Source of the DNA: Oscillospiraceae bacterium
GTDB lineage: Bacteria > Bacillota > Clostridia > Oscillospirales > Acutalibacteraceae
Direction: 5' to 3'
NCBI GenBank assembly: GCA_015065965.1
Contig: SVPH01000021.1
Location: forward strand, 1 to 49,080
DNA length: 49,080 bases
Below, piece by piece: positions 19,948 through 35,815 of this stretch. The notes beneath the pieces were generated by a model. That model was not told the origin of the DNA. It ran no database searches and was given only the letters and a program-made list of their open reading frames with translations. Every line of letters begins with the position of its first letter. Position 1 is the first letter of the stretch. The translations under genes and the position numbers were made by a program.

Positions 19948-19980
19948 TTGACAGATTTTTCCAATTGCTCCGTGTAGAAT
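19948..19980 (+). promoter_or_regulatory. spoIIE promoter with 21-bp spacer
   Basis: TTGACA (19948-19953) and TAGAAT (19975-19980) are separated by 21 bases instead of 17. The same odd spacing is known for Bacillus subtilis spoIIE, where sigma-A needs Spo0A to use it. Possible degenerate Spo0A boxes (TGTCAAT and TGTTGAG on the minus strand, each 5 of 7 to TGTCGAA) overlap the -35. Confidence 0.6.
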
Positions 19981-20018
19981 TAAACCAAGTGACATTTTTT
20001 GAAAGGAATAATAAAACT

Positions 20019-22313
20019 ATGGAAAATTCAAAAGCGGTTCGTGACGGCGACGTTGCGGATGTTCTGTGGGAAAAAGGAATAAAAATTCTGAGCGGCGTGC
20101 TTTACTTTATGAGCGGCTTTGTCCTCTCGGGCGCAGGACTGCTTTCTGTCAGACTTCCGCTGAGCATCGGTCTTGCCGCCGCATGCACGGGCACTGAACT
20201 CATATGTGCCGCCGCCGGCGGAATGCTCGGCGCAACACTGCGGCTTTCCTCGGGCGAACTTCTCAATGCGGTAATTCCTCTTGCAGGTATAGCAGGCATA
20301 ATCCTCATTCTTGATAAAGCAGGCATAAAGAAAAAACGAAGAGTTATTCTTTCCGTCAGTGTTTTTGTTCTTTGTTTCGGCTGCGGTACAGCCGTTATGT
20401 TTTCGGAAATACCGTCACTCTCCGCTTTTATTCTTGTTCTGTGTTCAAGCCTTTTATGCGCCGCATCAGTTACATTTTATTCGGGCACGGTTGACTGCAT
20501 AAAGAAAAAGCGCAGCCCGTATATGCTTGATAATCACAGCCTTGTGTGCATCGTTGCAAGCCTTTGCACACTGCTTCTCGGAGCAAGCGAACTGAGCCTT
20601 ATGGGCTTTCGGCCGGCAAGGTTTTTCGGTTGTTTTATTATACTTACGGCATCCTACCTTTTCAGCCGTTCGGGCGGCAGCATAGCAGGGATTGCCATAG
20701 GTGCGTGTATTGCCGTTTCGGGCACAAGCGTTGCACTGAGCATATGTTACGGAATATGCGGTCTGCTCTCGGGGATTTTTTCAAAATTCGGTCAGATTAT
20801 ATGTGCACTCATTTTCACCCTCGCCGCAGGAATCGCCGCTTTGCTTGACGGTTCGGAAGAAGGACTCTGCGTTTTTGCCGAAGCCGCCTTAGCAGCATTT
20901 ATATTTGCAGCCATACCGAGAAACCGTCTTTCAAGAGTCAGAAACAACATTCTCAACCCTAAAGTACGGCGGATAGAATCGGAATTCGGTTCGGCAGGCG
21001 AAAGGCTGCTTGAAACATCACGTGCCATAGGTTCGGTTTCAGAGTGCGTTGCAAATGTTTCAAAAGGCATTGATGCCCTCTGCCCTGCAAACGATGTTAT
21101 GGTCTGCATGAGAGTCAGGGAGAGAGTCTGCAATCAGTGTCAACTTCAAAACACTTTCTGCCCCGAAGAAGGTGAATTTGCTGCTATACTTGAAAAACTT
21201 GCAGACGGCGAAACAATTAAAGCCGAGGATTTCTCGCAGAATTTCAATGCCAAATGCCCAAGCGTACCGAGGCTCGCCGACTGCTTTAACAGAATTTACG
21301 CAAGCCGCAGCGCCGTTAATGCACTGCAGGCGAATTCGGCAAGAAACAGAGCGCTCGCCTGCGGTCAGTTTGACTGGACTGCAGCCCTGTTGCGTGAACT
21401 TTCCGAAGAACTCGGCAGAGGCGCACAAACGCTTTTCAACAAAGAAAAGTGTGCCGCGAGGGTACTTTCGGAGCATGGATTTGAAGTTCAGAGCATCAGT
21501 TGTATCCAGCCGCTTTCAGGCGCAATGCGCCTTAGTTGCGTTGTTGACGAAATCCCTGTTTCCACAAGCCTGTCATTGCTCACTGCAGCGCTTTCAACCG
21601 AACTTGAAGCGCAACTTAATCCGCCGAGAATAAGGGAAGTTCGCAGCGGCAAGGAACTTGTTTTTCTGAGAAAAGAACTATTTAAAATCCGCATGGGATC
21701 TGCTGCGGCAAGTTGCGGAAATCAGCGGCTTTGCGGCGATTATTTTGAATGCTTCCAGACCGAATCCAAAGCATATATAATCCTCAGCGACGGCATGGGT
21801 ACGGGCGGCAGAGCGGCAATAGACTCAACTATGACGGTTGAACTTTTTTCACGCTTAATAAGGGCAGGCGTAAGCCTTGACTCAGCCCTGAGCATAACAA
21901 ACTCTGCCCTTTCCGTTAAATCGGACGATGAATCTCTTTCCACTCTTGATGTTGCGGAAATTGACCTTTTTGACGGCAGCACGGTTATCCTTAAAGCAGG
22001 TGCGGCGCCGTCATTTTACACTGTATCGGGCAAGGTTAAAACGGTTGAAATTCCGTCAACTCCGCTCGGAATACTCAGCAACGTCAAATTCAACCGCTAC
22101 AACCTTAAACTGCGCGGCGGCGATACTCTTGTTATGGTCAGTGACGGCATCCTCGGCTGCGGAAACAACTGGCTGAAAGATGAAATCCGCTCCTTTGCCG
22201 GCGGTGCTGATGCATGCGGTTTTTCCGAAGAGATTCTTGGGTCTGCACGCTGCAGATGCGGCGAAAAATTTGATGACATGACCGTGATAACCGCCGTTGC
22301 GGAAGAGATATAG
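20019..22313 (+). CDS. spoIIE: stage II sporulation protein E (SpoIIE phosphatase)
   Basis: Membrane PP2C-type serine phosphatase that dephosphorylates SpoIIAA and so activates sigma-F in the forespore. Start ATG at 20019 after GAAAGGAATA, giving 764 residues. Residues 20-315 form about ten membrane segments, followed by a Cys-rich regulatory region and, from about 560, the phosphatase domain: CGDYFECF, LSDGMGTGGRAAIDS (manganese-binding Asp), and SDGILGCG...FDDMTVITAV at the end. A longer frame would place the start inside the promoter. Its presence argues strongly that the organism sporulates. A terminator follows. Confidence 0.97.
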   Translation: MENSKAVRDGDVADVLWEKGIKILSGVLYFMSGFVLSGAGLLSVRLPLSIGLAAACTGTELICAAAGGMLGATLRLSSGELLNAVIPLAGIAGIILILDKAGIKKKRRVILSVSVFVLCFGCGTAVMFSEIPSLSAFILVLCSSLLCAASVTFYSGTVDCIKKKRSPYMLDNHSLVCIVASLCTLLLGASELSLMGFRPARFFGCFIILTASYLFSRSGGSIAGIAIGACIAVSGTSVALSICYGICGLLSGIFSKFGQIICALIFTLAAGIAALLDGSEEGLCVFAEAALAAFIFAAIPRNRLSRVRNNILNPKVRRIESEFGSAGERLLETSRAIGSVSECVANVSKGIDALCPANDVMVCMRVRERVCNQCQLQNTFCPEEGEFAAILEKLADGETIKAEDFSQNFNAKCPSVPRLADCFNRIYASRSAVNALQANSARNRALACGQFDWTAALLRELSEELGRGAQTLFNKEKCAARVLSEHGFEVQSISCIQPLSGAMRLSCVVDEIPVSTSLSLLTAALSTELEAQLNPPRIREVRSGKELVFLRKELFKIRMGSAAASCGNQRLCGDYFECFQTESKAYIILSDGMGTGGRAAIDSTMTVELFSRLIRAGVSLDSALSITNSALSVKSDDESLSTLDVAEIDLFDGSTVILKAGAAPSFYTVSGKVKTVEIPSTPLGILSNVKFNRYNLKLRGGDTLVMVSDGILGCGNNWLKDEIRSFAGGADACGFSEEILGSARCRCGEKFDDMTVITAVAEEI

Positions 22314-22371: not shown

Positions 22372-23097
22372 TTATTCAGTTGTTTCAGTTGTTGATTTTT
22401 CAGTTGTAGTGATTTCGTAGGGAGGTATAGTTGTTTCATTTGAAATTTCCACCTCACCGTATTTTGCGATTATTTCCGCTTCCATTTGTTCAACATCAAC
22501 CCAGTCGGTTGTTCGGGTCTGATATGTACCGTCAGCAACGGCTTGTTCAAATTCAAGTTCATATAGATACGGATATTCGTGACTTAAATAATAATCGTTT
22601 ATAATTTCATCATCAAATGTGTAAATGATATCTGCGTTATAAACTTCATCCGTTTCCTGATTAGCAAAATCCTGAGGATCCATCATCGGTTTACCTTTAA
22701 ATCCTTTTATAATTATCTTTGCCCACTCAAGATTTGCTCTGTCAAAATCTTCACGAGAAATGTTGAACTCCTGAATAAACAATTTCATTGGCATTATTTC
22801 TGTTTTGTTTGGGTCGTTTTTTATAACATCTTCATACCAATCCTGAAATTCAAAAAGATCTACAAGATTTGAAAACGGTCTTGGAATGTTACAATAAATA
22901 CGCCTATATTTGGTTAAAGATAAATCTCCGCCACCAACATCATTTTCGTTGTTGATTATTTGCTGATTTAATTCCGTTGCTAAAGACGATCTTGTTGTAG
23001 TTAAATTTTCTTTTGTTTCTTTATTACAAGCAGAAATCAAACAAAGTACAGATAAACTAATAACAATTGCTAAAATAACACTTATTAATTTTCTCAT
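22372..23097 (-). CDS. lipoprotein, paralogue of the next gene
   Basis: A 241-residue lipoprotein of unknown function. The signal peptide ends in the lipobox LISAC (Cys24), so it should be anchored outside the membrane. Its core (about 58-215) is clearly homologous to the upstream gene: GGGDLSLTKYRRIY, the NPF-like IPRPF, YNADIIYTFDDEIIN and YYLSHEYPY. The C terminus is a short Thr/Glu tail (PPYEITTTE). Start overlaps the upstream stop as ATGA. The region is AT-richer than the neighbouring operons. It probably works with the M23 peptidase encoded first in the operon. Confidence 0.8.
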   Translation of the reverse strand: MRKLISVILAIVISLSVLCLISACNKETKENLTTTRSSLATELNQQIINNENDVGGGDLSLTKYRRIYCNIPRPFSNLVDLFEFQDWYEDVIKNDPNKTEIMPMKLFIQEFNISREDFDRANLEWAKIIIKGFKGKPMMDPQDFANQETDEVYNADIIYTFDDEIINDYYLSHEYPYLYELEFEQAVADGTYQTRTTDWVDVEQMEAEIIAKYGEVEISNETTIPPYEITTTEKSTTETTE

Positions 23098-23837
23098 ATA
23101 ACCACTTCCGTTTGTTCAGTTGTGGTGATTTCGTAGGGAGGTACGGTTGATTTTTCATTTTTTAATTGATTGAAAAAAGCAAGTTCATCTTCAAGTTCTG
23201 ATACATCAATAATTTCACATGTACGAGTGGTATAATGTCCATCCTCAACCGCTTTTTCGTACTCACTCTCATAGCAATAAGGATAATCATGACTTAAATA
23301 ATATTCATTGATTATTTCATCGTCGAACGTGTAAATTATATCCGCATTGTATACTTCGTTAAATTCTTGATTTACAAAGTCTTGTGGATTGATTACGGGA
23401 GTACCGTATAATCTTTCTTTAACAATTCTTGCCCATTCTGCATTTGCGGCATCAAATTTTTCTCGAGGAACATTATACTCCTCAACAAAAATCTTCATAC
23501 GCATTGTATTTATTTGACTGTACGGTTGTTCCCAATATTCTCCATATATATTTTGTCTGCTGTTTTCATCGATAATATCCCAAAACGGAGAAGGTATAGA
23601 ATAATAAATTGAGCGATATTTTTGCAGAGTCAGTTCACCACCACCGGAATATGAAGCCTCTGTTTTTTTGAGATTATCAGGTTCATTTTTGGAATCTATG
23701 TCTGAATAAATAGTTTCATCAACAGATGCAGATTGTTTGTTTTCTGCTGTTGTTGTTTCTTGTTGACTTTCATTTGTACAAGCTACAAAAGATAATAATA
23801 TAAAAACTATTAACATAATTGAGTTTAACTTTTTCAT
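23094..23837 (-). CDS. lipoprotein, paralogue of the previous gene
   Basis: A 247-residue lipoprotein from the ATG at 23837, which follows AAAGGAGA; a longer frame would overlap the M23 gene. Lipobox SFVAC (Cys20). A Ser/Thr/Asn/Glu-rich spacer leads to a core starting GGGELTLQKYRSIYYSIPSPF and sharing YNADIIYTFDDEIIN, YYLSHDYPY and a PPYEITTTE tail with its neighbour. The two are a recent-looking tandem duplication. Function unknown; secretion and operon context suggest a cell-surface partner of the M23 protein. Confidence 0.82.
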   Translation of the reverse strand: MKKLNSIMLIVFILLSFVACTNESQQETTTAENKQSASVDETIYSDIDSKNEPDNLKKTEASYSGGGELTLQKYRSIYYSIPSPFWDIIDENSRQNIYGEYWEQPYSQINTMRMKIFVEEYNVPREKFDAANAEWARIVKERLYGTPVINPQDFVNQEFNEVYNADIIYTFDDEIINEYYLSHDYPYCYESEYEKAVEDGHYTTRTCEIIDVSELEDELAFFNQLKNEKSTVPPYEITTTEQTEVVI

Positions 23838-23850
23838 AAACAATCTCCTT

Positions 23851-25605
23851 TTACTCGTTTTCTCCGTACCAATAAAATCCATTTCCGTTAGAAGCGGCTT
23901 CACATGTGTCACTCTTTGAAATGCTTTTATCCATATCCATGTAAAAATAAATAGGATTGATTGTTTCCGTAAACGGATTATTGCTACCGGATCTTATTGC
24001 GGCGTTTTGATTATTAACTTCATAATGAAGATGTGCTCCAGATGTATTGTATCCCGTATTGCCGGCACACCCTATTATCTGTTCCTTTGTTACAGAACCA
24101 CCTTCTTTGAGCGCTTTGCCGTTAACTACTATATTTCCCGATGAATTTGTATCCCAACGAGATAAATGCATATAAATAACTGTTAAATTTTTACCGCTAA
24201 TCGGATCGATTTTATCGGTTGCTATTACAATTGCATTTCCGTGTGAAGTCTCTTTGTTATTATCTACATATATTCTCGTGATTGTTCCATTATATGATGC
24301 AACAACCGGTTTGCCTTCGACCTCACCTGAAACATCCGAAACGATATCAAAACCCTTGTGATTACCACCATTATTTGAACTTCGCGGTCCAAACGGAGAA
24401 CTGATTTTTTTAATATTAATATCATTAATTGGCCAACGAAAGTTCATTAAATTATACTGCGAAACGGTTCCTTTTGTTGAAACATCAGCAATGGGAATAT
24501 AGCCCCAAATCTTATCATTGTCACTGATTGGGTAATATCCGTAAGCCCAGCCGTTATCGGTGCCGCAGTCGCCTTGAACTACAAATGTTTTTCCCTTAGA
24601 AAGAGATTCGACTTCTTTATACTTGCTACCCTCTGCCTGATAAACATGAGTTTGTTTATTGGTTTTTGCTGTCCATGGCTGAGGCCACTTGTAAAGAAGA
24701 TGTATAGTGCATTTTGCTGTCATTCCGTCTGATCTTGCCGTTATTATTGTTTTTTGTCCTGGTACTTTACCGACAATCTGACCGGTAGATTCGTCAAAAT
24801 CAATATAATTTTTATCCCAGCCGTCCCACTCTACCTCACCTTTGTAAGTTGTAGTCAATTTTCTGTTTTCATATGTTACTCCGTTTGCCCATATATTCAT
24901 ATCGGTTGCAGATAAATTCAGAAATTCATTTATTACTTTATCGAGATGTGTGTATTTTACAAAGCCGTCGGTTGCATTTGATTGATTTGCTACCGCTATA
25001 TATGCAAACGAGCCGTATCTTCCCATTACCTGACACTCTCCGCCGGTCAACAACACCCTGTTTAATGTGTTTGTGTTAAGTATTAAACGACCAAAATACG
25101 GAAGAATAACGCGCAAAAATTCAGCCAAAAGACTATATAAAAATTTACGGCTTACATGTACTGATGAAAGACTGCCTGCAAACGGCTGTTTATAGATTAA
25201 AGTAAGAAAATCCGTGAATTCACTTTCTTTGTAGTCACCTATAGACTCAACGCAATAAATTCTTACTGTTTCTTTTTTTGAGCCGATTTTTGCTTTACAG
25301 GTTATATCAGCATAGTTACCTGCCGATAAACCTTTTATTAATCCGTCTTCTGTGCATGATATAACAGACGGATTGCTCGAATACCATTCCACCGAACTTT
25401 CTTTTGCGGATTCAGGGCTTAATGTTACTTTCATTTGAGCGGTCTTTCCTTCAACAATCCCGCATCTCGGAGAAATGGATATTTTATCAACACCAAGAGC
25501 ATCAGGGCTGCTTTCAACCGCAAGAGCAGCAGTATTAAAAATCAGCAGCAAACACATTATCAAAGAAATAACAACAGTTGATTTTAAAATAATCTTTTTT
25601 CTCAA
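23851..25605 (-). CDS. secreted M23 (LytM-type) peptidoglycan endopeptidase with Ig-like domains
   Basis: A 584-residue exported protein. Signal peptide 1-29 (ending ALA). Two bacterial Ig-like (Big2) regions lie around 38-118 and 240-305, an SH3-like stretch at 315-375, and the M23 domain at 400-555. Zinc ligands are H416, D420 and H527, with H480 and H525 as catalytic partners, all present, so it should be active on peptide cross-bridges. The start codon is TTG, 10 bases after GGAGG; an ATG five bases earlier opens only ATG-CTT-TGA. It heads an AT-rich three-gene operon with two lipoproteins, 13 bases away. Confidence 0.88.
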   Translation of the reverse strand: MRKKIILKSTVVISLIMCLLLIFNTAALAVESSPDALGVDKISISPRCGIVEGKTAQMKVTLSPESAKESSVEWYSSNPSVISCTEDGLIKGLSAGNYADITCKAKIGSKKETVRIYCVESIGDYKESEFTDFLTLIYKQPFAGSLSSVHVSRKFLYSLLAEFLRVILPYFGRLILNTNTLNRVLLTGGECQVMGRYGSFAYIAVANQSNATDGFVKYTHLDKVINEFLNLSATDMNIWANGVTYENRKLTTTYKGEVEWDGWDKNYIDFDESTGQIVGKVPGQKTIITARSDGMTAKCTIHLLYKWPQPWTAKTNKQTHVYQAEGSKYKEVESLSKGKTFVVQGDCGTDNGWAYGYYPISDNDKIWGYIPIADVSTKGTVSQYNLMNFRWPINDINIKKISSPFGPRSSNNGGNHKGFDIVSDVSGEVEGKPVVASYNGTITRIYVDNNKETSHGNAIVIATDKIDPISGKNLTVIYMHLSRWDTNSSGNIVVNGKALKEGGSVTKEQIIGCAGNTGYNTSGAHLHYEVNNQNAAIRSGSNNPFTETINPIYFYMDMDKSISKSDTCEAASNGNGFYWYGENE

Positions 25606-25967: not shown

Positions 25968-28277
25968 TTATTCCGAAATAAACTTAACAGTGAAGCAGTG
26001 AGAACGGATTTCATATTTCATTATTTTTGCTCTGAAGGCGTTGCCTTTCATTGTGTGACTGCCCACTCTCATTGTTGTTACATATCCGCAGTTCTCGCTC
26101 ATTGATGCATCATGTTCAACAACCTCAAGCCATTCGGCAGGGTTATCGCTGAGAACTATATCCTTATTGCCGTTTTCAATAAGTTCTTTCATTTCCTCAA
26201 CGGTTACCTCAACCTCTGTTGCTCCGGGGTCTTCGGGACTTGAAACGCCGCCCTGAAGATAAGGATATCCTTCTCCGCCCCACACGCTCGATGAGGATGC
26301 GGTTTTGCCGGCTGCCGTTGAGAAATAGCAGGTAAACGCAGCACTTCCGTTATAATCAACATAGGGCGCGGAAGGCGCGCTGCTCTCATCTGCCATTCCG
26401 AGTAATTCAAGGCAAAGTGAATAATATCTTGACGATTTATAGTCAAAGCCGTCATCATATGCGTGTTTGCTTGCATCCACGGTAAAGTTATATGTTTTTG
26501 CATATGTATAGATGGCGACCATCTGGGCTTTAACCGCTTCATCGCCCGCACTGCTGTAACCCATTTCACGCTTTGTTGTTTTGCAGATATATTCAACAAC
26601 AGGAATATCCTTGCCGCCGTAACTGATTGCTGCAGGGGTGTTCGGGTCTTTCTTCACCGTTGTGCCGGGATAATAATGGGTAAGAATTTCTTCATATGAA
26701 CTGCCGTTTTTCGCCATTTCCATTGCGCCGTGCTGGCTCATACCTACACCGTGACCGTAACCGTAGACTTTAAAAACAAACTTTCCGCCCTTAGGCTCTG
26801 ATTTAAGCGTTGTACTGCTCTCTGCAGCCTGAGTTGTGGTTGTTGTTGGCTTTGCTGTTGTGGTTTCGGTAGTGACAGGCTTAGTCGTAGTTGTGGCTGC
26901 CTGTTTTGTTGTTGTAGTGGTTTTTATTACCTTTGTGGTTGTAGTTGTGGATTTAACCGTATTTAAAACCGTTGTTATAATCTGCGTTGTTTTTTCGGCA
27001 ACGCTCTTTTTGGTTGTTGTTGCGTTCGGAAAAATGAAAGTTCTCATCTGAGTTGTGGAACTTTGAACACCGTCATTGATTCCGCCTATGGCAACCGCTT
27101 CCATATCAGGATTTTCAAGTCCGCTTCCGCCGTAATTATAGTCCATGAAATTGTTTTCCATGCTCTGCTGCGTAACGCCCTGCAGACCTGCGTTGGCATT
27201 GGTGAGCGTTGTATCGTCATCTTTACTGCCAAGCACAAAGGCCGAAATAAGGCAGACAACAATGGCAAGCGCGATTGCAGCTATGGCTATAATGAGCGGA
27301 GTCCTTGAAATTTTCGGTTTTTTGGGTTTGTTGGGATTGACAAGACCAGCCGCTCCCGAAAATTCTTCAAGCATTGAACAAAGTTTGATAACTGCCGCAG
27401 CAAGAATATTCTTTTTGCCCTCTCCCGGGACAGCATAAACCTTTGCCGCCTTTGCTCTTTCGGAGTTTGCGATGCAAACTGTTATGTATTCTTCGCCGTT
27501 TTCGTTGACGGAAATATCTGAAATTGCCGCACCCAGATCGGTGTCTGAGGTTTCTTTTGAAAGTTTAGCGCTTTGAGCGATATAGTTTTCTTCGCTTTCT
27601 CCTTCAAGAATATCTCTTTGTTCATTGCTTGGCACAAACGCTTTTTCGCTGTCGGGAACAGAATTTATAACCGCAAGCAGGGCTTTGGCACTGCCGCAGG
27701 GCGAAATTGCAACGGTCTTGCCGCTGCCGATTACTTTTTCTATGCTTTCCTTTACCTGCGCCATACCCTGTTTACGGGGTTTTGCATCAGCAGGGAATGC
27801 CTTTGACAGAATTCCGCTCAGACCGAGGGCAAAAACCTCTTCGGCTCTGGTTTCGTCAAGGGGCATAAAAACAACTATTCCTTCTCCGAGTTCTTTCATG
27901 AATGCGGAATAAATTCCGTCAGATGAAACAAGCACCTTTGCCTTTTCGGGGAATGCGGAATGAAGTTCTTTTTCTTTATCGTTTTGAGGAGCGTTGCCGC
28001 CCATAGCGGCAACTGTTGCACTGTTTCTGACAATTTTTGAAGAAAACATTTTAAGTAAACGGAGTTTTGCATTAAGGAAAACGGAAAGGGGTGCGGCAGC
28101 AACAATAATACCGCCCTCACAAGCGCACTTGCCCACGGCCTCAGCAAAGGATGCGGCATCGCCGTAATCCGCTGATGAAGCCTCAGGGTCATACCCTCGG
28201 AGTTTATTTTCAAGATAATCTGCCGCTCCCTGCGCCGATGGAGCACAAAGAGTACAGATACTCACCTTTCTTTTCAT
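25968..28277 (-). CDS. membrane-anchored SpoIID/LytB-family protein with circularly permuted domain
   Basis: A 769-residue protein in three parts. Residues 1-320 are a cytoplasmic region I do not recognise. One membrane helix spans 327-349. Outside, a Thr-rich linker (405-490) leads to a SpoIID-type peptidoglycan transglycosylase domain. In known SpoIID the catalytic Glu block (EMP...EALKAQ) comes first and GYGHGVGMSQ near the end. Here GYGHGVGMSQHGA is first (506-518), the catalytic block with E571 and EAVKAQ (580-585) comes next, and the FR...RSHCFTVKF strand, normally just before GYGHG, is the last element (748-766). This is the order expected of a circular permutation. All key motifs survive, so activity is likely. 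Confidence 0.85.
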   Translation of the reverse strand: MKRKVSICTLCAPSAQGAADYLENKLRGYDPEASSADYGDAASFAEAVGKCACEGGIIVAAAPLSVFLNAKLRLLKMFSSKIVRNSATVAAMGGNAPQNDKEKELHSAFPEKAKVLVSSDGIYSAFMKELGEGIVVFMPLDETRAEEVFALGLSGILSKAFPADAKPRKQGMAQVKESIEKVIGSGKTVAISPCGSAKALLAVINSVPDSEKAFVPSNEQRDILEGESEENYIAQSAKLSKETSDTDLGAAISDISVNENGEEYITVCIANSERAKAAKVYAVPGEGKKNILAAAVIKLCSMLEEFSGAAGLVNPNKPKKPKISRTPLIIAIAAIALAIVVCLISAFVLGSKDDDTTLTNANAGLQGVTQQSMENNFMDYNYGGSGLENPDMEAVAIGGINDGVQSSTTQMRTFIFPNATTTKKSVAEKTTQIITTVLNTVKSTTTTTKVIKTTTTTKQAATTTTKPVTTETTTAKPTTTTTQAAESSTTLKSEPKGGKFVFKVYGYGHGVGMSQHGAMEMAKNGSSYEEILTHYYPGTTVKKDPNTPAAISYGGKDIPVVEYICKTTKREMGYSSAGDEAVKAQMVAIYTYAKTYNFTVDASKHAYDDGFDYKSSRYYSLCLELLGMADESSAPSAPYVDYNGSAAFTCYFSTAAGKTASSSSVWGGEGYPYLQGGVSSPEDPGATEVEVTVEEMKELIENGNKDIVLSDNPAEWLEVVEHDASMSENCGYVTTMRVGSHTMKGNAFRAKIMKYEIRSHCFTVKFISE

Positions 28278-28452: not shown

Positions 28453-30483
28453 TTACCAGCGAGCATCCTCTGCATAGGGATTAGTCTTTTTCATGGCATC
28501 ATACCATGCCTGAGGATACTTGGGATTGGGATTCTCGTATGCCTTTGAAGTATCTACATTAACGCTTTCTCCCTCTCTCTTAAGCCTTGCAACAACAACA
28601 AGTTTTGCATCGTCAAAGTCATAGCAGCAGGTTGAAAGAGTGAGGATTTTATCGGTAGGCTCAAGAGTAACACCGGTTGTGTAAAGTTTACGCTTATCAA
28701 TTTCCTTGATATAACTTTCAAACTTTTCGGTTGGAAGGTCAATGAAGTTATAGGGGAAAACATATCCGTTGTCATCGGATGCATCTGAGTTTGAGATGAA
28801 AACACCATAAACAAACCATGTGTAATCGCCGAAAATGGTGTTGCATTCAATAACAGGTGCCTGAGCAAAGCCGTCAATTGTACGGTAATTCTCAAGCATA
28901 CCGAAGATATAATCATCGGAACGCATATTATGACCGTAAATAACGTTATTCATGTGCAGATTTTTAAAATCTGTCATTCTGAAATCAAAGAAAGGCACAC
29001 CGTAAGATGTATATTTGCCGTAAATATCCTTCTTGAGATAAAATTCGTTGTTTGAACTCTGGGCAACGGGAAGATTGATTTCAAGACCCGGAATTGAAAT
29101 CCAGCCTTTGAGGTCATTGTTTGCTGCATAAAGTTGCGCATATTTTGCAAGCATTCCGTCAGGGAAAATAACATCGGGGAACTCCGTTGCAAGGAAACTG
29201 TCAACAACCTCGGTTTCATCATGTTTGTCAACGCTGACATTCATCTGGTCTGCAAGTTCATCTGCGGTTTTCTTGAATCTCATGGGTTCAATGATATAAG
29301 TGTTAACAAGCAGACCGCAACTTGCAATAATGGTTACGATTGAAACAGCCAGAACGATTTTTCTGATAACTTCTCCCGCTCCGCCTGAGGTCTTTTCTTT
29401 GTTTTCCTTCTTTTTCTTCTTGTTCTTTTTACCTTTTTCCTCAACGAAGTTCGCATCAAATTCCTCTTCGGTAATGAATGAAATTCCGCTGCTCATGGGT
29501 TCGGGGTTATAGAGTTTTTCAGGCTGTGCCGCTGCCGCCTCATAATCATTGCCGTCATCGGGAACATCAATTACAAAGCCCTCTGCCGCAGGAACTTCCG
29601 CTTCCTGTGCGGATACATCCTCTCCGAGAAGGATTCTGAGTTCTTCTTCAAAATCTTCAATCGGCTCTTTTTCCGCCACAATTTCAGGCTCATTATCAGC
29701 CTCCGGAACATCCTTTTCTTCGTCAATAACGATAACGCTTTCGCTGGTGTTTTCCTCTTTTGAAAAGTCTTCTTCAAGGCTGCCCATTTCAACCTCGGGC
29801 TCTATATCAAGATTTACAAAATCCGCCTCAAAAGCGGCAGGGTCAGTTACTATCTGCGATGCGGATGAAAGTTCGTTTTCAACGGTTGCAATACCCTGAT
29901 TCGATTCTATTTCCGAAAGAATTTCACTGAAACCTGCATCGCTGTCCGAATCACTTTTAAGCATATCAATCATGCTCATGATATCGTCCTTTGCGGAATC
30001 GAGCGTTACTACTTCCGCTTCTGCTGCCGACTCGGGTGCAAAGAAGGCTTCGTTGGGGATTTCTGCCTGCTCTTCCTCACTGTCAAGCGAAACAACGGGA
30101 ATATCATCATCGAAATAATCCTCGGGGTTCATCCATAAATCATCAAGTGAATTGTTTTCGTTTTCATCGGGAACTTCGGGGTCTGAAAGCACAACTTTTT
30201 TTGGCTCTGCTTCGCTTGAAGTGAGCACTGACATGGGCTTTGGAACAATTGTTTCGGGTCCGCTGCCCATAATATCGTCATAAAGGCTCTGAAGTTCGCT
30301 CTCTATGCTTTTTTCTGTTTTTTCAATATCATCATGGAATCCTTCAAAAAGAGGCGCAGAGTTTGTACTCTCCTCAAGGAAATCAGTAAGATTTATTTCC
30401 GTTATTGCCTCATCATCTGCAATTGAACTGAGACCCTCGGGCAGAGATGACTGCTTTTTGTTCTGGTTTTCATTATTGGACAT
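28453..30483 (-). CDS. class B sortase with long acidic cytoplasmic tail
   Basis: 676 residues from the ATG at 30483 (GGAGGATAAAAAG upstream). Residues 1-345 are acidic and low in structure; a Lys-rich block (352-364) precedes one membrane helix (375-397). The extracellular part is a complete class B sortase: H518 in IYGHN, catalytic C619 in TLSTC, R633 in VVARL. Sortases attach surface proteins to peptidoglycan or cross-link pilins. A 370-residue cytoplasmic tail is very unusual for a sortase, which normally has a tail of a few residues. It follows another class B sortase by 17 bases in a five-gene operon. Confidence 0.88.
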   Translation of the reverse strand: MSNNENQNKKQSSLPEGLSSIADDEAITEINLTDFLEESTNSAPLFEGFHDDIEKTEKSIESELQSLYDDIMGSGPETIVPKPMSVLTSSEAEPKKVVLSDPEVPDENENNSLDDLWMNPEDYFDDDIPVVSLDSEEEQAEIPNEAFFAPESAAEAEVVTLDSAKDDIMSMIDMLKSDSDSDAGFSEILSEIESNQGIATVENELSSASQIVTDPAAFEADFVNLDIEPEVEMGSLEEDFSKEENTSESVIVIDEEKDVPEADNEPEIVAEKEPIEDFEEELRILLGEDVSAQEAEVPAAEGFVIDVPDDGNDYEAAAAQPEKLYNPEPMSSGISFITEEEFDANFVEEKGKKNKKKKKENKEKTSGGAGEVIRKIVLAVSIVTIIASCGLLVNTYIIEPMRFKKTADELADQMNVSVDKHDETEVVDSFLATEFPDVIFPDGMLAKYAQLYAANNDLKGWISIPGLEINLPVAQSSNNEFYLKKDIYGKYTSYGVPFFDFRMTDFKNLHMNNVIYGHNMRSDDYIFGMLENYRTIDGFAQAPVIECNTIFGDYTWFVYGVFISNSDASDDNGYVFPYNFIDLPTEKFESYIKEIDKRKLYTTGVTLEPTDKILTLSTCCYDFDDAKLVVVARLKREGESVNVDTSKAYENPNPKYPQAWYDAMKKTNPYAEDARW

Positions 30484-30500
30484 CTTTTTATCCTCCGTAA

Positions 30501-31487
30501 TCAGTTGGGGCTGGGCTGCCAATCGGTTGAATTCTTATATGGATTTGTTTTGCCTTTGCTGTTATACCATACCTGCGGTCTGCGGTAATCGGGGTTATCC
30601 TTTACAAGAGAGGTGTCAATGCTCTCGCTCTCGCCTTCATGCAGAAGCCTTGCAACAACAACAAGCCTTGTATCTATGCTTTTGCCGTAATCGTAGATGC
30701 AGGTTGAAAGGGTAAGCACTTTATCCGCGGGCTCAAGCGAAACGCCTGTATCGTAAAGTTTGCGCTGATTTACCTGTTCGATATAGCCGACCATATTGCT
30801 CTCGCTCATATCGGGATAAATATAGTTGAAGAAATATCCGTTATCGTCCTTGCCCTGAGTTGTTGAAAGGAAAACAGCGCAGATTTTATAGGTATATTCT
30901 TCGGTAAGAGTGCTGTATTTAATAATGGGATTTTCAATAAAATGGTTCATATTTCTGTAGTCATAGAGCGAACGGAATGACTGCTTGGGAATACCGTCAG
31001 ACCTGCCTGTTGTATGACCGTGGATAACCATATTCTTTGAAAGCCCGTCGGGAAGGCAGCGGTAATCAAGATAAATGTTGCCGTAATTATCCGACGAAGT
31101 TTCATATGTTGTCTTATTATAAAAATCTTTTTTAAGGTAATAGTTGTTGTCACCGCCCTGCACAACGGCAGTGTCAAGTTCAGTGCCGGGAATTGAAAGC
31201 CAGCCGACGAGGTCATTATTGATTGAATAAGCCTGTTTGAGTTCTTCGCGGATACCTGCGGGGTATTCACCCTGAGCCTTCATATTATTTGAGATAACTG
31301 CATCAAGGGCGGCTGCGGGAGCATCCGCCTGAACGCCCTGAGCAAGGACAAGCCCTGCCGTTTCTTTATCAATAACAGTTCCGTCATCCGAATCTTTTGT
31401 AAAGTTAACAATTGAAAGAACAATAAACAAAACCGAAACTGCGGCAAAAACCGCACAAAGTACAGCCGGTAACTTTTTGGAATTCAT
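30501..31487 (-). CDS. class B sortase
   Basis: A 328-residue transpeptidase with an N-terminal membrane anchor (7-28) and a sortase B core. Catalytic triad: H158 in VIHGHTTG, C263 in TLSTC, R280 in LVVVARL. Its core is about half identical by eye to the next sortase, including the NNDLxGWxSIPG and KLYxTGVxLEPxDKxLTLSTC blocks, so the pair arose by duplication. Start overlaps the cinA stop by 4 bases. No sortase substrate with a sorting signal is seen in the window. Confidence 0.92.
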   Translation of the reverse strand: MNSKKLPAVLCAVFAAVSVLFIVLSIVNFTKDSDDGTVIDKETAGLVLAQGVQADAPAAALDAVISNNMKAQGEYPAGIREELKQAYSINNDLVGWLSIPGTELDTAVVQGGDNNYYLKKDFYNKTTYETSSDNYGNIYLDYRCLPDGLSKNMVIHGHTTGRSDGIPKQSFRSLYDYRNMNHFIENPIIKYSTLTEEYTYKICAVFLSTTQGKDDNGYFFNYIYPDMSESNMVGYIEQVNQRKLYDTGVSLEPADKVLTLSTCIYDYGKSIDTRLVVVARLLHEGESESIDTSLVKDNPDYRRPQVWYNSKGKTNPYKNSTDWQPSPN

Positions 31488-32728
31488 ATCTTCTTTCCCT
31501 CCAGATAAATTCTTGCAAGATTGAGAGCGCGCGATGAATTGACATAGCGGTTATACTCTCTGTCACTCCTGCCCGTTTCTATTTTTTCACAAACCTGTTT
31601 ATCCGCCGCATCGAGGGCGATGTAGCAAAGACCCACAGGCTTGTCCGTGCCGTCACTGCCGGGACCTGCAATACCCGTTACGGATATACCGATATCCGCA
31701 CCGGAAACACGGCGTATACCTGCCGCCATTTCTCTTGCCGTCTGTTCACTGACCGCACCGTATTTTCTGAGCGTTTCTTCTTTGACACCCAGAATCTGCT
31801 GCTTGACTTCGTTTGAATAAGTTATCGCTCCGTAACCAAAAACACTGCTTGCTCCGGGAATATCCGTTATTCTTTTCGGAATATACCCTGCAGTGCAACT
31901 TTCCGCCGTTGCGATTGTCATTTTCTTCTCTTTGAGAAGTTCAACAACTCTTTCCTCTATGCTTGCACTGTCAATGCCGTAAACATAGCCGCCGAGCCTT
32001 GATTTTATCTCCTCAATAACGGGTTTGCAGAGTTCCTCCGCTTCGCTCTCACTGTGAGCCTTTGCGGTAACTCTCAGCAGAGCCTCGCCTTTTTTTGCAT
32101 AAGGAGCAACTGTAGGATTCTCCTGTTCAAGCAAGTCCGCACACTGCTCTGCCATTGCGCTCTCGCCAATGCCCATGGTTCTTACCGTATGCGAAACAAT
32201 CGCACCGTCGGAATACTCCGAAAGATAAGGCACGACATATTCCTTATACATCGGAGCCATTTCATAAGGAGGACCTGGGAGAATAACAACGCACTTACCG
32301 TCTTTCTTAAGACCCAGACCGGGCGCCGTTCCGTTATGATTTTCAAAAACATCTCCGCCGACGGGAACATAAGCCTGCCTGAGATTGCTTTCGGGCATTT
32401 CATATCCCTTTGTAGCAAAGTAATTTCTTATACCGTCAGCGATTTCGTCGCTCATGCGCATTTCAAAGCCCATCACTTCGCAGCAGACATCCCTTGTTAT
32501 GTCATCTGCCGTTGGACCCAGACCGCCCGTTGCGATAACAATATCGCTTCTTTCAAGCGCAGTTTTCAGCGCAGCGGCAAGCCTTTTGTGATTATCGCCT
32601 ACGGTTGTATGCCTGAGAACGGAAATGCCGAGTTTTGAAAGTTCAACCGAAAGATATCTTGAATTTGTGTTCAGAATATCGCCGAGCAGAATTTCTGTGC
32701 CGACCGAAAGAATTTCACAAACAGCCAT
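31484..32728 (-). CDS. cinA: CinA family protein (nicotinamide-nucleotide amidase)
   Basis: 414 residues with two domains. The N-terminal MoCF-like domain (about 1-170) has EILLGDILNTNSRYLS and GGLGPTADDITRD. The C-terminal amidase domain (about 255-414) has TAESCTAG and SVTGIAGPGSDGTDKPVG, as in PncC, which recycles nicotinamide mononucleotide. In some bacteria cinA is competence-linked and pairs with recA; here it is between thiI and two sortases. ATG after a short gap behind thiI. Confidence 0.95.
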   Translation of the reverse strand: MAVCEILSVGTEILLGDILNTNSRYLSVELSKLGISVLRHTTVGDNHKRLAAALKTALERSDIVIATGGLGPTADDITRDVCCEVMGFEMRMSDEIADGIRNYFATKGYEMPESNLRQAYVPVGGDVFENHNGTAPGLGLKKDGKCVVILPGPPYEMAPMYKEYVVPYLSEYSDGAIVSHTVRTMGIGESAMAEQCADLLEQENPTVAPYAKKGEALLRVTAKAHSESEAEELCKPVIEEIKSRLGGYVYGIDSASIEERVVELLKEKKMTIATAESCTAGYIPKRITDIPGASSVFGYGAITYSNEVKQQILGVKEETLRKYGAVSEQTAREMAAGIRRVSGADIGISVTGIAGPGSDGTDKPVGLCYIALDAADKQVCEKIETGRSDREYNRYVNSSRALNLARIYLEGKKI

Positions 32729-32747: not shown

Positions 32748-33923
32748 TTAATACGCATTTATGGGAATAAACCTTGCGTTCTCCGCCGCTTCCTTAACAA
32801 GCCTGTCCACTTCAAGCGCTTTTTCGCACTCCTCAACATAGTCGAGAGTGGGCTTTGTTTTTGGATGCTTTGGTGTGAACACCGTACAGCAATCTTCATA
32901 AGGAAGAATTGAGATATCGAAGGTTTCTATTTTTCTTGAAATTGCAACAACCTCGTCTTTATCCATACCGATAAGAGGACGGAAAACAGGCATTTCGCAA
33001 ACGGCATCCGTGCAGGCGATTGCAGGCATTGTCTGGCTTGCAACCTGACCTACGCTTTCACCCGTGATGAGTGCGCCTGCCTTTTCCCTTGCCGCAATAA
33101 TCTGAGCAACTCTCATCATCATGCGGCGCATGATAACCGTGAATATATCTTCGGGGCAGTTATCCTTGATAAGTTCCTGAGTTTCCGTAAACGGAACAAC
33201 CCACAGAGTTATTCTGCCCGAATATTTGCTGACCTGCTTTAAAAGCGAGTGTACTTTCTGCTCCGCCCTTTCACTGGTGTAAGGAGGCGATGCAAAATGG
33301 ATTGCGATAAGTTCAAGACCTCTCTTTGCCATCATGTAAGCGGCAACAGGGCTGTCGATTCCGCCGGAAATAAGGATTGCCGCCCTGCCTGCAGAGCCTG
33401 TGGGCATACCGCCTGCACCCTTTATCTGTTTGCCGTGGATATATGCATGCGAATCCCTGATTTCAACGGTAACAACCATATCGGGGTTATGAACATCAAC
33501 AACAAGGTGGGGAAATTTGCGCAGAAGGTATCCGCCTGTTTCCCTGCATATTTCGGGGGAATTGAGTGGGAACTTTTTATCCGAACGCTTTGCCTCAACC
33601 TTAAAACTTCTGATACCGAGAAGTTGGGGAGCCAGATATTCTTCTGCGCTTCTCAGTATGGTTTCCATATCCTTTTCAACCGCAGCGGCTCTTGAAAAAC
33701 CTGCAATGCCGAAAACCTTGCTGATGCGCTCAATTGCTTCGTCAAGGTCTGCCTCATCATTTTCGGGTTCTGCGATTATTGTTGACTGTGCGATTGTGAA
33801 TTTAAACTTGCCTGCGCTTTCAAGCCTGCGGCGCATATTCTTGACGAGCATATCCTCAAAAGTTCTTCTGTTAAGACCTTTGAGCGCAAGTTCGCCGTTT
33901 TTAATAAGAATAATCTCTTTCAT
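32748..33923 (-). CDS. thiI: tRNA 4-thiouridine synthase ThiI
   Basis: Adenylating sulfur transferase that makes s4U8 in tRNA and can feed thiamine thiazole synthesis. I chose the ATG at 33923 (MKEIILIKNGE) because GGAG lies 6 bases upstream; the longer frame uses a TTG within that site. 391 residues: N-terminal ferredoxin-like and THUMP domains (about 1-165), then the PP-loop ATPase with SGGIDSPVAAYMM. There is no C-terminal rhodanese domain, as usual in Firmicutes. The partner cysteine desulfurase is immediately upstream. Confidence 0.96.
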   Translation of the reverse strand: MKEIILIKNGELALKGLNRRTFEDMLVKNMRRRLESAGKFKFTIAQSTIIAEPENDEADLDEAIERISKVFGIAGFSRAAAVEKDMETILRSAEEYLAPQLLGIRSFKVEAKRSDKKFPLNSPEICRETGGYLLRKFPHLVVDVHNPDMVVTVEIRDSHAYIHGKQIKGAGGMPTGSAGRAAILISGGIDSPVAAYMMAKRGLELIAIHFASPPYTSERAEQKVHSLLKQVSKYSGRITLWVVPFTETQELIKDNCPEDIFTVIMRRMMMRVAQIIAAREKAGALITGESVGQVASQTMPAIACTDAVCEMPVFRPLIGMDKDEVVAISRKIETFDISILPYEDCCTVFTPKHPKTKPTLDYVEECEKALEVDRLVKEAAENARFIPINAY

Positions 33924-33935
33924 CTTATACTCCAA

Positions 33936-35072
33936 TTAATTTATCGCTCTGATTACCTTTTTCCCTTCGGCAATGCCGAGAATAAGAGCGTCTATTTCCT
34001 GAACTGTTGTAAATCTTGAAAAACTGATTCTCAGAGGGCTGTCAAGCCTTCTGCGGTCAAGACCCATCTGCATAAGCACATGGCTTTTTTTGCCCTTTGA
34101 GCAAGCCGAACCGCTTGAAACGCAGATGCCTTTTTCTGAAAGGAAGTTAAGCATCGGCTCGGATTTTATGCCCAAAACTGAAATATTTGTAACATAGGGC
34201 AATGCATCTGGCGGCGAATTGATAACCACATCGCCGATTCCCTCAAGTTTTGAAACCATGTAGTCCCTGAGCATTCTGATATGCTCAAGTTCTTTCTGCG
34301 GATCGGGCATTGCTTTGGCGGCAGCGGCAAAACCTGCGATTGCGGGCATTGCTTCCGTGCCGGGTCTGATTTTCATTTCCTGCTCGCCGCCGAAAGTTCT
34401 CGGTTTTATTTTCACACCCTTGCGGATATAAAGCGCACCGACACCTTTGGGTCCGTGGATTTTATGGGAACTTACCGTCATAAGATCAACGCCGAGAGCG
34501 GCAGGTTTTATCGGCATTTTGCCGAAAGCCTGAACGGCATCGCAGTGAATGAGTGCCGGTGAACGAGCCATCATTGCCGCGCGCTTTGCAGCCTGAACAG
34601 GCATTACTGTGCCCACTTCATTGTTGACAAGCATCATGGAAATGAGAATTGTATTTGAATTAACGGCGGCATAAAGGTCTTTTTCGTTTATCCTGCCGTA
34701 ATTGTCAACTTTAAGCCTGATAACTTCAAAACCGTCTGCTTCAAGGCGGCTGAGGGTATCATCAATGCTGGAATGCTCAACGCTTGTTGAAACAATCCGT
34801 CTGCCCATGCGGCGCATCTGATATGCCGCGCCGAAAAGAGCAAGGTTGTTACTCTCCGTTCCGCCGGAGGTGAAGAAGATTTCTTCGGGATTGCAGGAAA
34901 GACGCTTTGCAATATCTTCCCTTGAACGGTCAAGCAAATCTTTGGCTTCGTTGCCGATTCTGTGGAGAGATGAGGGATTACCCCAGCATTTTGTCATGGC
35001 ATCCGCAACAGCGCTGACAGCCTCGCAGCACGGTGCTGTTGTTGCACTGTTATCAAAATATGCACACATCAT
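33936..35072 (-). CDS. nifS: cysteine desulfurase (NifS/IscS family), ThiI partner
   Basis: PLP enzyme of 378 residues that takes sulfur from cysteine and passes it on as a persulfide. PLP lysine K204 in SSHKIHGPKG, conserved H100 in EHSSI, and catalytic C324 in SSGSACSKGKKSH, a short-loop class I arrangement. The gene ends 12 bases before thiI, so its likely job is sulfur supply for tRNA thiolation, as for NifZ-ThiI in Bacillus; the nearby mnmA may share it. It heads the operon nifS-thiI-cinA-sortase-sortase. The symbol reflects family only. Confidence 0.93.
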   Translation of the reverse strand: MMCAYFDNSATTAPCCEAVSAVADAMTKCWGNPSSLHRIGNEAKDLLDRSREDIAKRLSCNPEEIFFTSGGTESNNLALFGAAYQMRRMGRRIVSTSVEHSSIDDTLSRLEADGFEVIRLKVDNYGRINEKDLYAAVNSNTILISMMLVNNEVGTVMPVQAAKRAAMMARSPALIHCDAVQAFGKMPIKPAALGVDLMTVSSHKIHGPKGVGALYIRKGVKIKPRTFGGEQEMKIRPGTEAMPAIAGFAAAAKAMPDPQKELEHIRMLRDYMVSKLEGIGDVVINSPPDALPYVTNISVLGIKSEPMLNFLSEKGICVSSGSACSKGKKSHVLMQMGLDRRRLDSPLRISFSRFTTVQEIDALILGIAEGKKVIRAIN

Positions 35073-35154: not shown

Positions 35155-35362
35155 TATATTTTTTTGCCTTTAACGGAGACAGGGGTACGGGTTTATTACA
35201 GTATATGCCGATTTTACGAAACGGATATAATCATAATACCCCCATTAATTTAATAAATTTGATGATATTTGTTAAGAGATTTGAAAGATTTGGCGGTAAC
35301 GAGGAATAATATCGGTAAACAAACCTTTTCTGTCGCATAAAATAATGTCAAGGAGAGATTTT

Positions 35363-35815
35363 ATGTATACTTATCACAGCCGTTCAAGGCGTATTCTGGA
35401 TTTTCTTTCTCGCTCAAGGCCTGCCGCCGTTGCTCAGATATGCGGCACTCCGGACTTTCCCTCGGTTTGCGGAACACTAATGCTTTATCCGTCGCAGGCA
35501 GGAGTTTTTGCCGTTGTTTCGGTTGGCGGAATCCCCGATAAACTCGGCTGCGGCAACATCCTTGCAATGCATATCCATGACCCTGCAACAGGGGCGCACT
35601 ATAACCCCAAAAATCTTCCGCATCCGTTCCACGCAGGCGATATGCCGCCGCTTTTTGTTGACGGCAACGATGCTTGGGCAGCGTTTTTAACCGAGCGGTT
35701 TGATGTGCGCGATGTTATCGGCAAAACGGTTGTCATTCACCGCAGACGCGACGATTTTATGACTCAGCCATCGGGCGATGCAGGCGAAAAGATAGCGGAA
35801 GGAACGATAAAATAA
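35363..35815 (+). CDS. Cu/Zn superoxide dismutase family protein, apparently cytoplasmic
   Basis: 150 residues from the ATG at 35363, which has AAGGAG 7 bases upstream; a slightly earlier ATG lies before that site. The SodC-type metal ligands are all present: H70-x-H72, H79, H87/H90, D93 and H126, with GDMPPLFVD and the end pattern VIHRRRDDF...QPSGDAG. Deviations: the substrate-guiding Arg after GDAG is Lys (GEK), the C-terminal Cys of the usual disulfide is Glu, and an Arg-rich N terminus replaces a signal peptide. It may be a superoxide dismutase or a metal-binding relative. Single-gene unit with its own terminator. Confidence 0.8.
   Translation: MYTYHSRSRRILDFLSRSRPAAVAQICGTPDFPSVCGTLMLYPSQAGVFAVVSVGGIPDKLGCGNILAMHIHDPATGAHYNPKNLPHPFHAGDMPPLFVDGNDAWAAFLTERFDVRDVIGKTVVIHRRRDDFMTQPSGDAGEKIAEGTIK

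Follow-up and report, generated by a model that had tools for sequence, protein, structure and literature searches.

The window, a stretch of 49,080 nucleotides that represents contig 14 of the 2.33-Mb draft genome of a gut-type bacterium (56 contigs, 86% complete), contains on its minus strand an open reading frame of 769 amino acids that starts with ATG, and the plus strand over the same positions is riddled with stop codons. The gene closes a conserved nifS-thiI-cinA-srtB-srtB set, and the features of the protein and of its neighbours are as follows:

25968..28277, minus: whole gene, 769 aa, with CinA-like region, membrane helix, Thr-rich linker and a SpoIID domain read as circularly permuted
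27312..28277, minus: cytoplasmic degenerate CinA region, residues 1-322 (hhalign, PDB CinA matches)
27228..27302, minus: membrane helix, residues 326-350 (hydropathy, peak mean 3.1)
26796..27227, minus: Thr-rich linker, residues 351-494 (Thr at 41 of 144 residues)
26646..26795, minus: GHG segment, residues 495-544, C-terminal in canonical SpoIID; His 509 is the GHG His
25971..26609, minus: catalytic block through the FR..RSHCFTV strand, residues 557-769, with catalytic-type Glu 571 and Tyr 651
28453..30522, minus: next gene upstream, class B sortase whose N-terminal region is long and cytoplasmic
30501..31487, minus: second class B sortase
31484..32728, minus: cinA, an ordinary CinA with Ser277 and Lys309, present in 14/14 aligned CinA of the family
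32748..33935, minus: thiI
33936..35072, minus: nifS-like cysteine desulfurase

The motifs recognised in an earlier note on this DNA, which named no strand, are indeed found in the minus-strand frame where it had placed them: GYGHGVGMSQHGA corresponds to residues 506-518, Glu 571 lies within KREMG, and EAVKAQ spans residues 580-585. The note had also described the FR...RSHCFTVKF strand as the very last element and, with FRAKIM at 748 and RSHCF at 758, this strand ends at residue 766, three residues short of the C terminus. The Thr linker and single membrane helix that it had proposed are likewise borne out by the composition and hydropathy of the chain.

When the protein was compared with the PDB by phmmer at E values up to 10, only three SpoIID sequences were matched (E 4e-15 to 5e-14), each as two blocks in swapped order. 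In a profile alignment, the two swapped blocks jointly cover the SpoIID domain, with positions 60-266 of the profile corresponding to 55-275 of the chain and positions 12-53 to 286-327. Membership of the SpoIID/LytB family by sequence is indicated by the TIGR02669 (SpoIID_LytB) score of 114.2 bits versus a cut-off of 83.3, and the SpoIID fold was also recognised in the window protein; in the predicted model, the GHG motif has a pLDDT of about 75 and the two helices following it of 87-91. Together with the recurrence in relatives described below, these sequence and fold comparisons support the reading of the ectodomain as a circularly permuted SpoIID/LytB domain, as the earlier note had proposed. 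In such an arrangement, the old C-terminal GHG segment would now come first and be joined by a short new link to the old N-terminal strand, and the new chain end would fall between the RS..F and GHG strands. The Pfam SpoIID model, whose 97 positions represent the catalytic block only, scored 21.4 against a cut-off of 23 in one search and 26.3 bits, above the cut-off, in another. Since this model was below its cut-off or unlisted in 6 of the 9 permuted homologues scanned, such proteins are easily overlooked, which reveals a practical gap through which permuted SpoIID proteins slip past Pfam.

Matches at E <= 0.001 are present in 88 of 100 genomes of the family. Among the matches listed, 17 of the 100 genomes (the window's included) have a single place that starts in the GHG segment and extends across the catalytic block, with 18 such places in these 17 genomes, classed by reading the rows; 17 of the 18 were retrieved, all with the GHG segment ahead of the catalytic block. 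From a collection of named species the best 80 of 162 relatives were taken, and of these best 80 loci motif order identifies 11 as permuted and reading adds a further four (L036, L067, L081 and L100, the last being actinobacterial), giving 15/80. At the level of the order, 3 of 197 genomes have the two blocks within a single place at E <= 1e-20, and among the matches listed in a class-wide search of 293 genomes the window's genome alone has one place spanning both; a doubtful partial place in that search (G192) was retrieved and is of canonical order. Within the phylum of L100, the two blocks fall in a single collinear place in 24 of 100 genomes (that of L100 included). By a strict motif script, the GHG motif comes first and the Glu motif follows in 15 of 27 actinobacterial loci, ten others having a GHG but no Glu motif and two (L214, L215) no GHG motif; Tsukamurella (L193) and Rhodococcus (L194) are both GHG-first. 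A SpoIID/LytB protein in a plasmid record of Fusobacterium animalis (L195) also has GHG before the catalytic Glu, in a frame that stops before the RS..F strand. Since GHG-first members occur in several groups, the earlier note's statement that the SpoIID/LytB order is the reverse of the one seen here is true of the reference structures but not of every member of the family, as the actinobacterial and Fusobacterium proteins demonstrate.

The search for other proteins with the same motif order, which the earlier note had suggested, has been productive in both collections (at least 17/100 family genomes and 15/80 loci). That an error of assembly or gene prediction wrongly joined two fragments might be considered for a draft genome of 56 contigs, but against such recurrence its probability is negligible. 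A chimeric or frameshifted gene, the objection that the earlier note had raised against its own reading, is likewise ruled out by the recurrence of the GHG-first order in other genomes.

For phylogenetic analysis, the two blocks were aligned apart and then concatenated, leaving out L168 and nine actinobacterial loci, for which the script found no motif pair. The 75- and 79-row trees are without the actinobacterial rows and six distant rows, the 79-row tree also without L178, L184 and L187, and G098 was placed in the 75-row tree only. The permuted Oscillospirales rows fall into two groups with canonical-order members between them, namely the window's group of 23 rows (support 98/94, or 97/94 in the 75-row tree with G098 inside, 24 rows) and a group of nine Ruminococcus rows (100/99 or 100/100). 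A single origin in Oscillospirales gave AU p values of 0.039 (87 rows), 0.091 (75 rows) and 0.225 (79 rows), the 75-row value being 0.175 when the canonical-order G098 was held with the permuted rows. These trees are consistent with two independent permutations in Oscillospirales, one origin not being firmly rejected. The actinobacterial GHG-first SpoIID/LytB proteins (L100, L193, L194 and others) share the block order of the window protein, and in L100 the chain also breaks between the RS..F and GHG strands, with no CinA-like region; the AU test rejects both a clade and an origin in common with the permuted forms of Oscillospirales (p 5e-6 with 7 actinobacterial rows).

The G098 copy (L021 / L174 / L227) occupies the same slot and has the CinA-like, helix and linker parts, together with a SpoIID domain of canonical order. 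In the 75-row tree its branch is long (1.05) and its placement within the 23-row group lacks support, and its position inside this group means that the permuted rows need three changes in that tree. It has Ala in place of the Glu and Ser in place of the His and is likely a pseudoenzyme, which indicates that at least one lineage can do without catalysis.

Were the window protein the sporulation SpoIID of its lineage, it would act in engulfment with SpoIIP and SpoIIM, and the presence of spoIIE in the window (19965-22313) and the finding that PF08486, searched at E values up to 10 in the 86%-complete genome, returned only the window gene and a SleC-like gene would both agree with this. However, its score against the TIGR02870 equivalog is 103.6 bits versus a cut-off of 234.75, its gene sits in a sortase cluster, and it lies outside the single clade (100/99) that 19 canonical rows form in the 75- and 79-row trees; "canonical SpoIID" is our own label for these rows, which are not one clade (4 changes) when the distant rows are included. 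Moreover, a gene of SpoIID size whose GHG motif lies at the C terminus is present as well in at least 11 of the 17 genomes that carry the permuted form. In six of them (G003, G009, G014, G044, G048, G087) both pieces of this gene are among the matches listed, and five more genes were read and have GHG at that end, the catalytic motif preceding it in G008, G018, G043 and G080 and being missed by the pattern in G002. On the basis of TIGR02870, the tree and the canonical copies, a sporulation role is rejected as the likelier reading and appears quite improbable; the window protein is most likely not the engulfment SpoIID, in line with the distinction already drawn in the earlier note. Compared with the SpoIID lytic transglycosylase (PDB 5I1T, 5TXU, 4RWR; TIGR02870), it is permuted, belongs to a separate clade, and adds a CinA-like cytoplasmic region and a sortase cluster. 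The SleC-like protein of the same genome (L001, G000:C7; 9h68 E 2.7e-72) resembles the SleC-type spore cortex lytic enzyme (9H68), with the catalytic part before a GLSQWG segment and C-terminal peptidoglycan-binding repeats.

CinA is a protein of NAD recycling that combines an NMN deamidase with a COG1058 pyrophosphatase. The cytoplasmic region of about 320 residues, to which the earlier note had assigned an unknown fold, can now be recognised as a degenerate CinA: residues 1-322 match CinA by hhalign (probability 99.3, E 4.7e-20), with a MoCF/COG1058-like half at about 4-160, a PncC-like half at about 170-310, and a gap in the profile alignment where the KH part of CinA is missing. Profile and fold comparisons recognise each of the two outer CinA domains, with matches to CinA in the PDB, and the model of the region has a pTM of 0.51. 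The kinship is visible only by profiles and folds: BLASTP of the region against the window's own CinA gave nothing (E 2), and Pfam recognises CinA in 1 of 14 CinA-like members (E 0.0058) and not in the window region. The deamidase dyad of CinA is S31/K63 in the available text of PMC5384747, and in the column read from the hhalign alignment the Ser is replaced in 14/14 CinA-like regions, so that the region is CinA-derived rather than an ordinary CinA, from which it differs, in addition, by being membrane-anchored and fused to SpoIID. That the region is a membrane-tethered enzyme, active as an NMN deamidase or as an ADP-ribose pyrophosphatase, could be argued from the two recognisable outer folds and from the Ser (ESGT) still present in the CinA parts of the natural fusions L042, L080 and L050; with the Ser replaced throughout the CinA-like regions, and with no GGLGPT, PGPPxE or TGIAGP noticed on visual inspection of that of the window, this is very improbable. 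Inside the cell, the degenerate CinA would probably work as a docking or sensing platform.

Gene order and strand suggest that the window cluster is a shared operon. When the window proteins were searched against 26 regions, nifS, thiI, cinA and a class B sortase were found together in 13, the others reaching contig edges or representing the dockerin group, and neither nifS nor thiI was seen in the dockerin-type regions L230-L236. Among the 20 regions that carry a permuted SpoIID, class B sortases lie upstream in 17; in the other three (L034, L038, L238), neither a sortase nor a CinA-like gene was found nearby. One or two class B sortases accompany the Ruminococcus-type permuted loci in 9/9 cases. 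Among 32 canonical-order loci that we chose from the best 80 of 162, sortases are present in 19 and absent from 13, several of which are short contigs. Thus, the SpoIID slot linked to sortases occurs with both the canonical and the permuted order. The CinA-like gene stands beside sortases with no SpoIID domain attached in L228, L229, L237 and L240, and as a separate gene adjoining a secreted permuted SpoIID in L012, L014, L016 and L017. The window protein itself has no sortase match and adjoins the class B sortases, which are fused to SpoIID in two other loci. Indeed, a single 1424-aa open frame in L042 (2434-6705) encodes MoCF, CinA_KH, CinA, Sortase and SpoIID, all over Pfam cut-offs, a 1225-aa frame in L080 (3013-6687) encodes the same set, and a 1016-aa frame in L050 (624-3671) encodes CinA and SpoIID with no sortase. 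These single frames of draft genomes, in all of which SpoIID has the canonical order, represent the best evidence that CinA, sortase and SpoIID may act together.

Other genes were also observed around the slot. In seven regions (L227, L230-L233, L235, L236) the slot is followed by galE, which was not seen next to it in the window. The window also contains a Cu/Zn superoxide dismutase gene (35345-35815, plus; PF00080 E 1.6e-13), odd if the organism is an anaerobe, as its kin suggest, and, following the Big_2/M23 endopeptidase gene at 23851-25605, a pair of neighbouring small proteins that look alike and have no Pfam match (22372-23912, minus). A dockerin module accompanies the permuted SpoIID in eight proteins, with E < 0.01 in five (L011, L012, L013, L015, L019). 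Dockerin_1 is above its cut-off in 4/8, and of those four genomes only G008 and G080 have cohesins. Cohesin matches occur in 6/8 of the dockerin-form genomes, with none in G013 and G044; none were found in G000, G015 and G002, and two in G018, which showed no dockerin form. The dockerin forms hint, weakly, at surface scaffold involvement.

In the available text of PMC6934232, PMC6221140 and PMC6635528, SpoIID cleaves denuded glycan with an essential Glu (E88 in the active B. subtilis enzyme, PMC6635528), leaving 1,6-anhydro ends. All 32 permuted Oscillospirales rows, that of the window included, retain the catalytic-type Glu as well as the GHG His, so that the ectodomain should cut glycan strands as SpoIID does. 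The protein would cross the membrane once, with its SpoIID/LytB lytic-transglycosylase-type domain outside, at the end of the Thr-rich linker. From the place of the gene at the end of the nifS-thiI-cinA-srtB-srtB set and from the natural CinA-sortase-SpoIID fusions, it most likely acts on peptidoglycan, opening or trimming it at the sites of surface-structure attachment or building by the class B sortases. Alternatively, the domain could be LytB-like and lack catalysis, serving as a glycan-binding modulator that directs other wall enzymes, as may be suggested by the loss of Glu and His in the G098 copy, by the Phe found in 9/17 homologues at Tyr 651, the alignment-based equivalent of Y194 of C. 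difficile SpoIID (PMC6934232, available text), and by the zinc motif of clostridial SpoIID, which was not seen by eye in the window protein. Yet Bacilli also lack this motif, according to the same text, and B. subtilis SpoIID is active (PMC6635528, available text); with the two residues kept in every permuted Oscillospirales row, a modulator appears rather unlikely. The preferred reading is that of a permuted glycan-cutting ectodomain that would act with a CinA platform in sortase-based assembly and not in engulfment, to which, taken as a whole, we give about an even chance.

Collectively, known parts (SpoIID, CinA and a sortase cluster) are found here in a new arrangement within a conserved gene cluster. 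In a search that most subscription papers lay outside, no publication was found that connects SpoIID to circular permutation, to CinA, or to sortase B and Ruminococcus. The broader proposal, which could equally well hold or fail, is an undescribed transmembrane wall-assembly system of Oscillospirales in which CinA or CinA-like proteins, class B sortases and SpoIID, sometimes in one polypeptide, would work together, with both SpoIID orders in one orthologous slot and the same order reached independently in Actinomycetota. If true, CinA, and with it NAD recycling, would be linked across the membrane to sortases and a glycan-cutting enzyme, and the slot would document, in a rare series, both the original and the circularly permuted state of a wall enzyme, the permuted order being found in another phylum as well.
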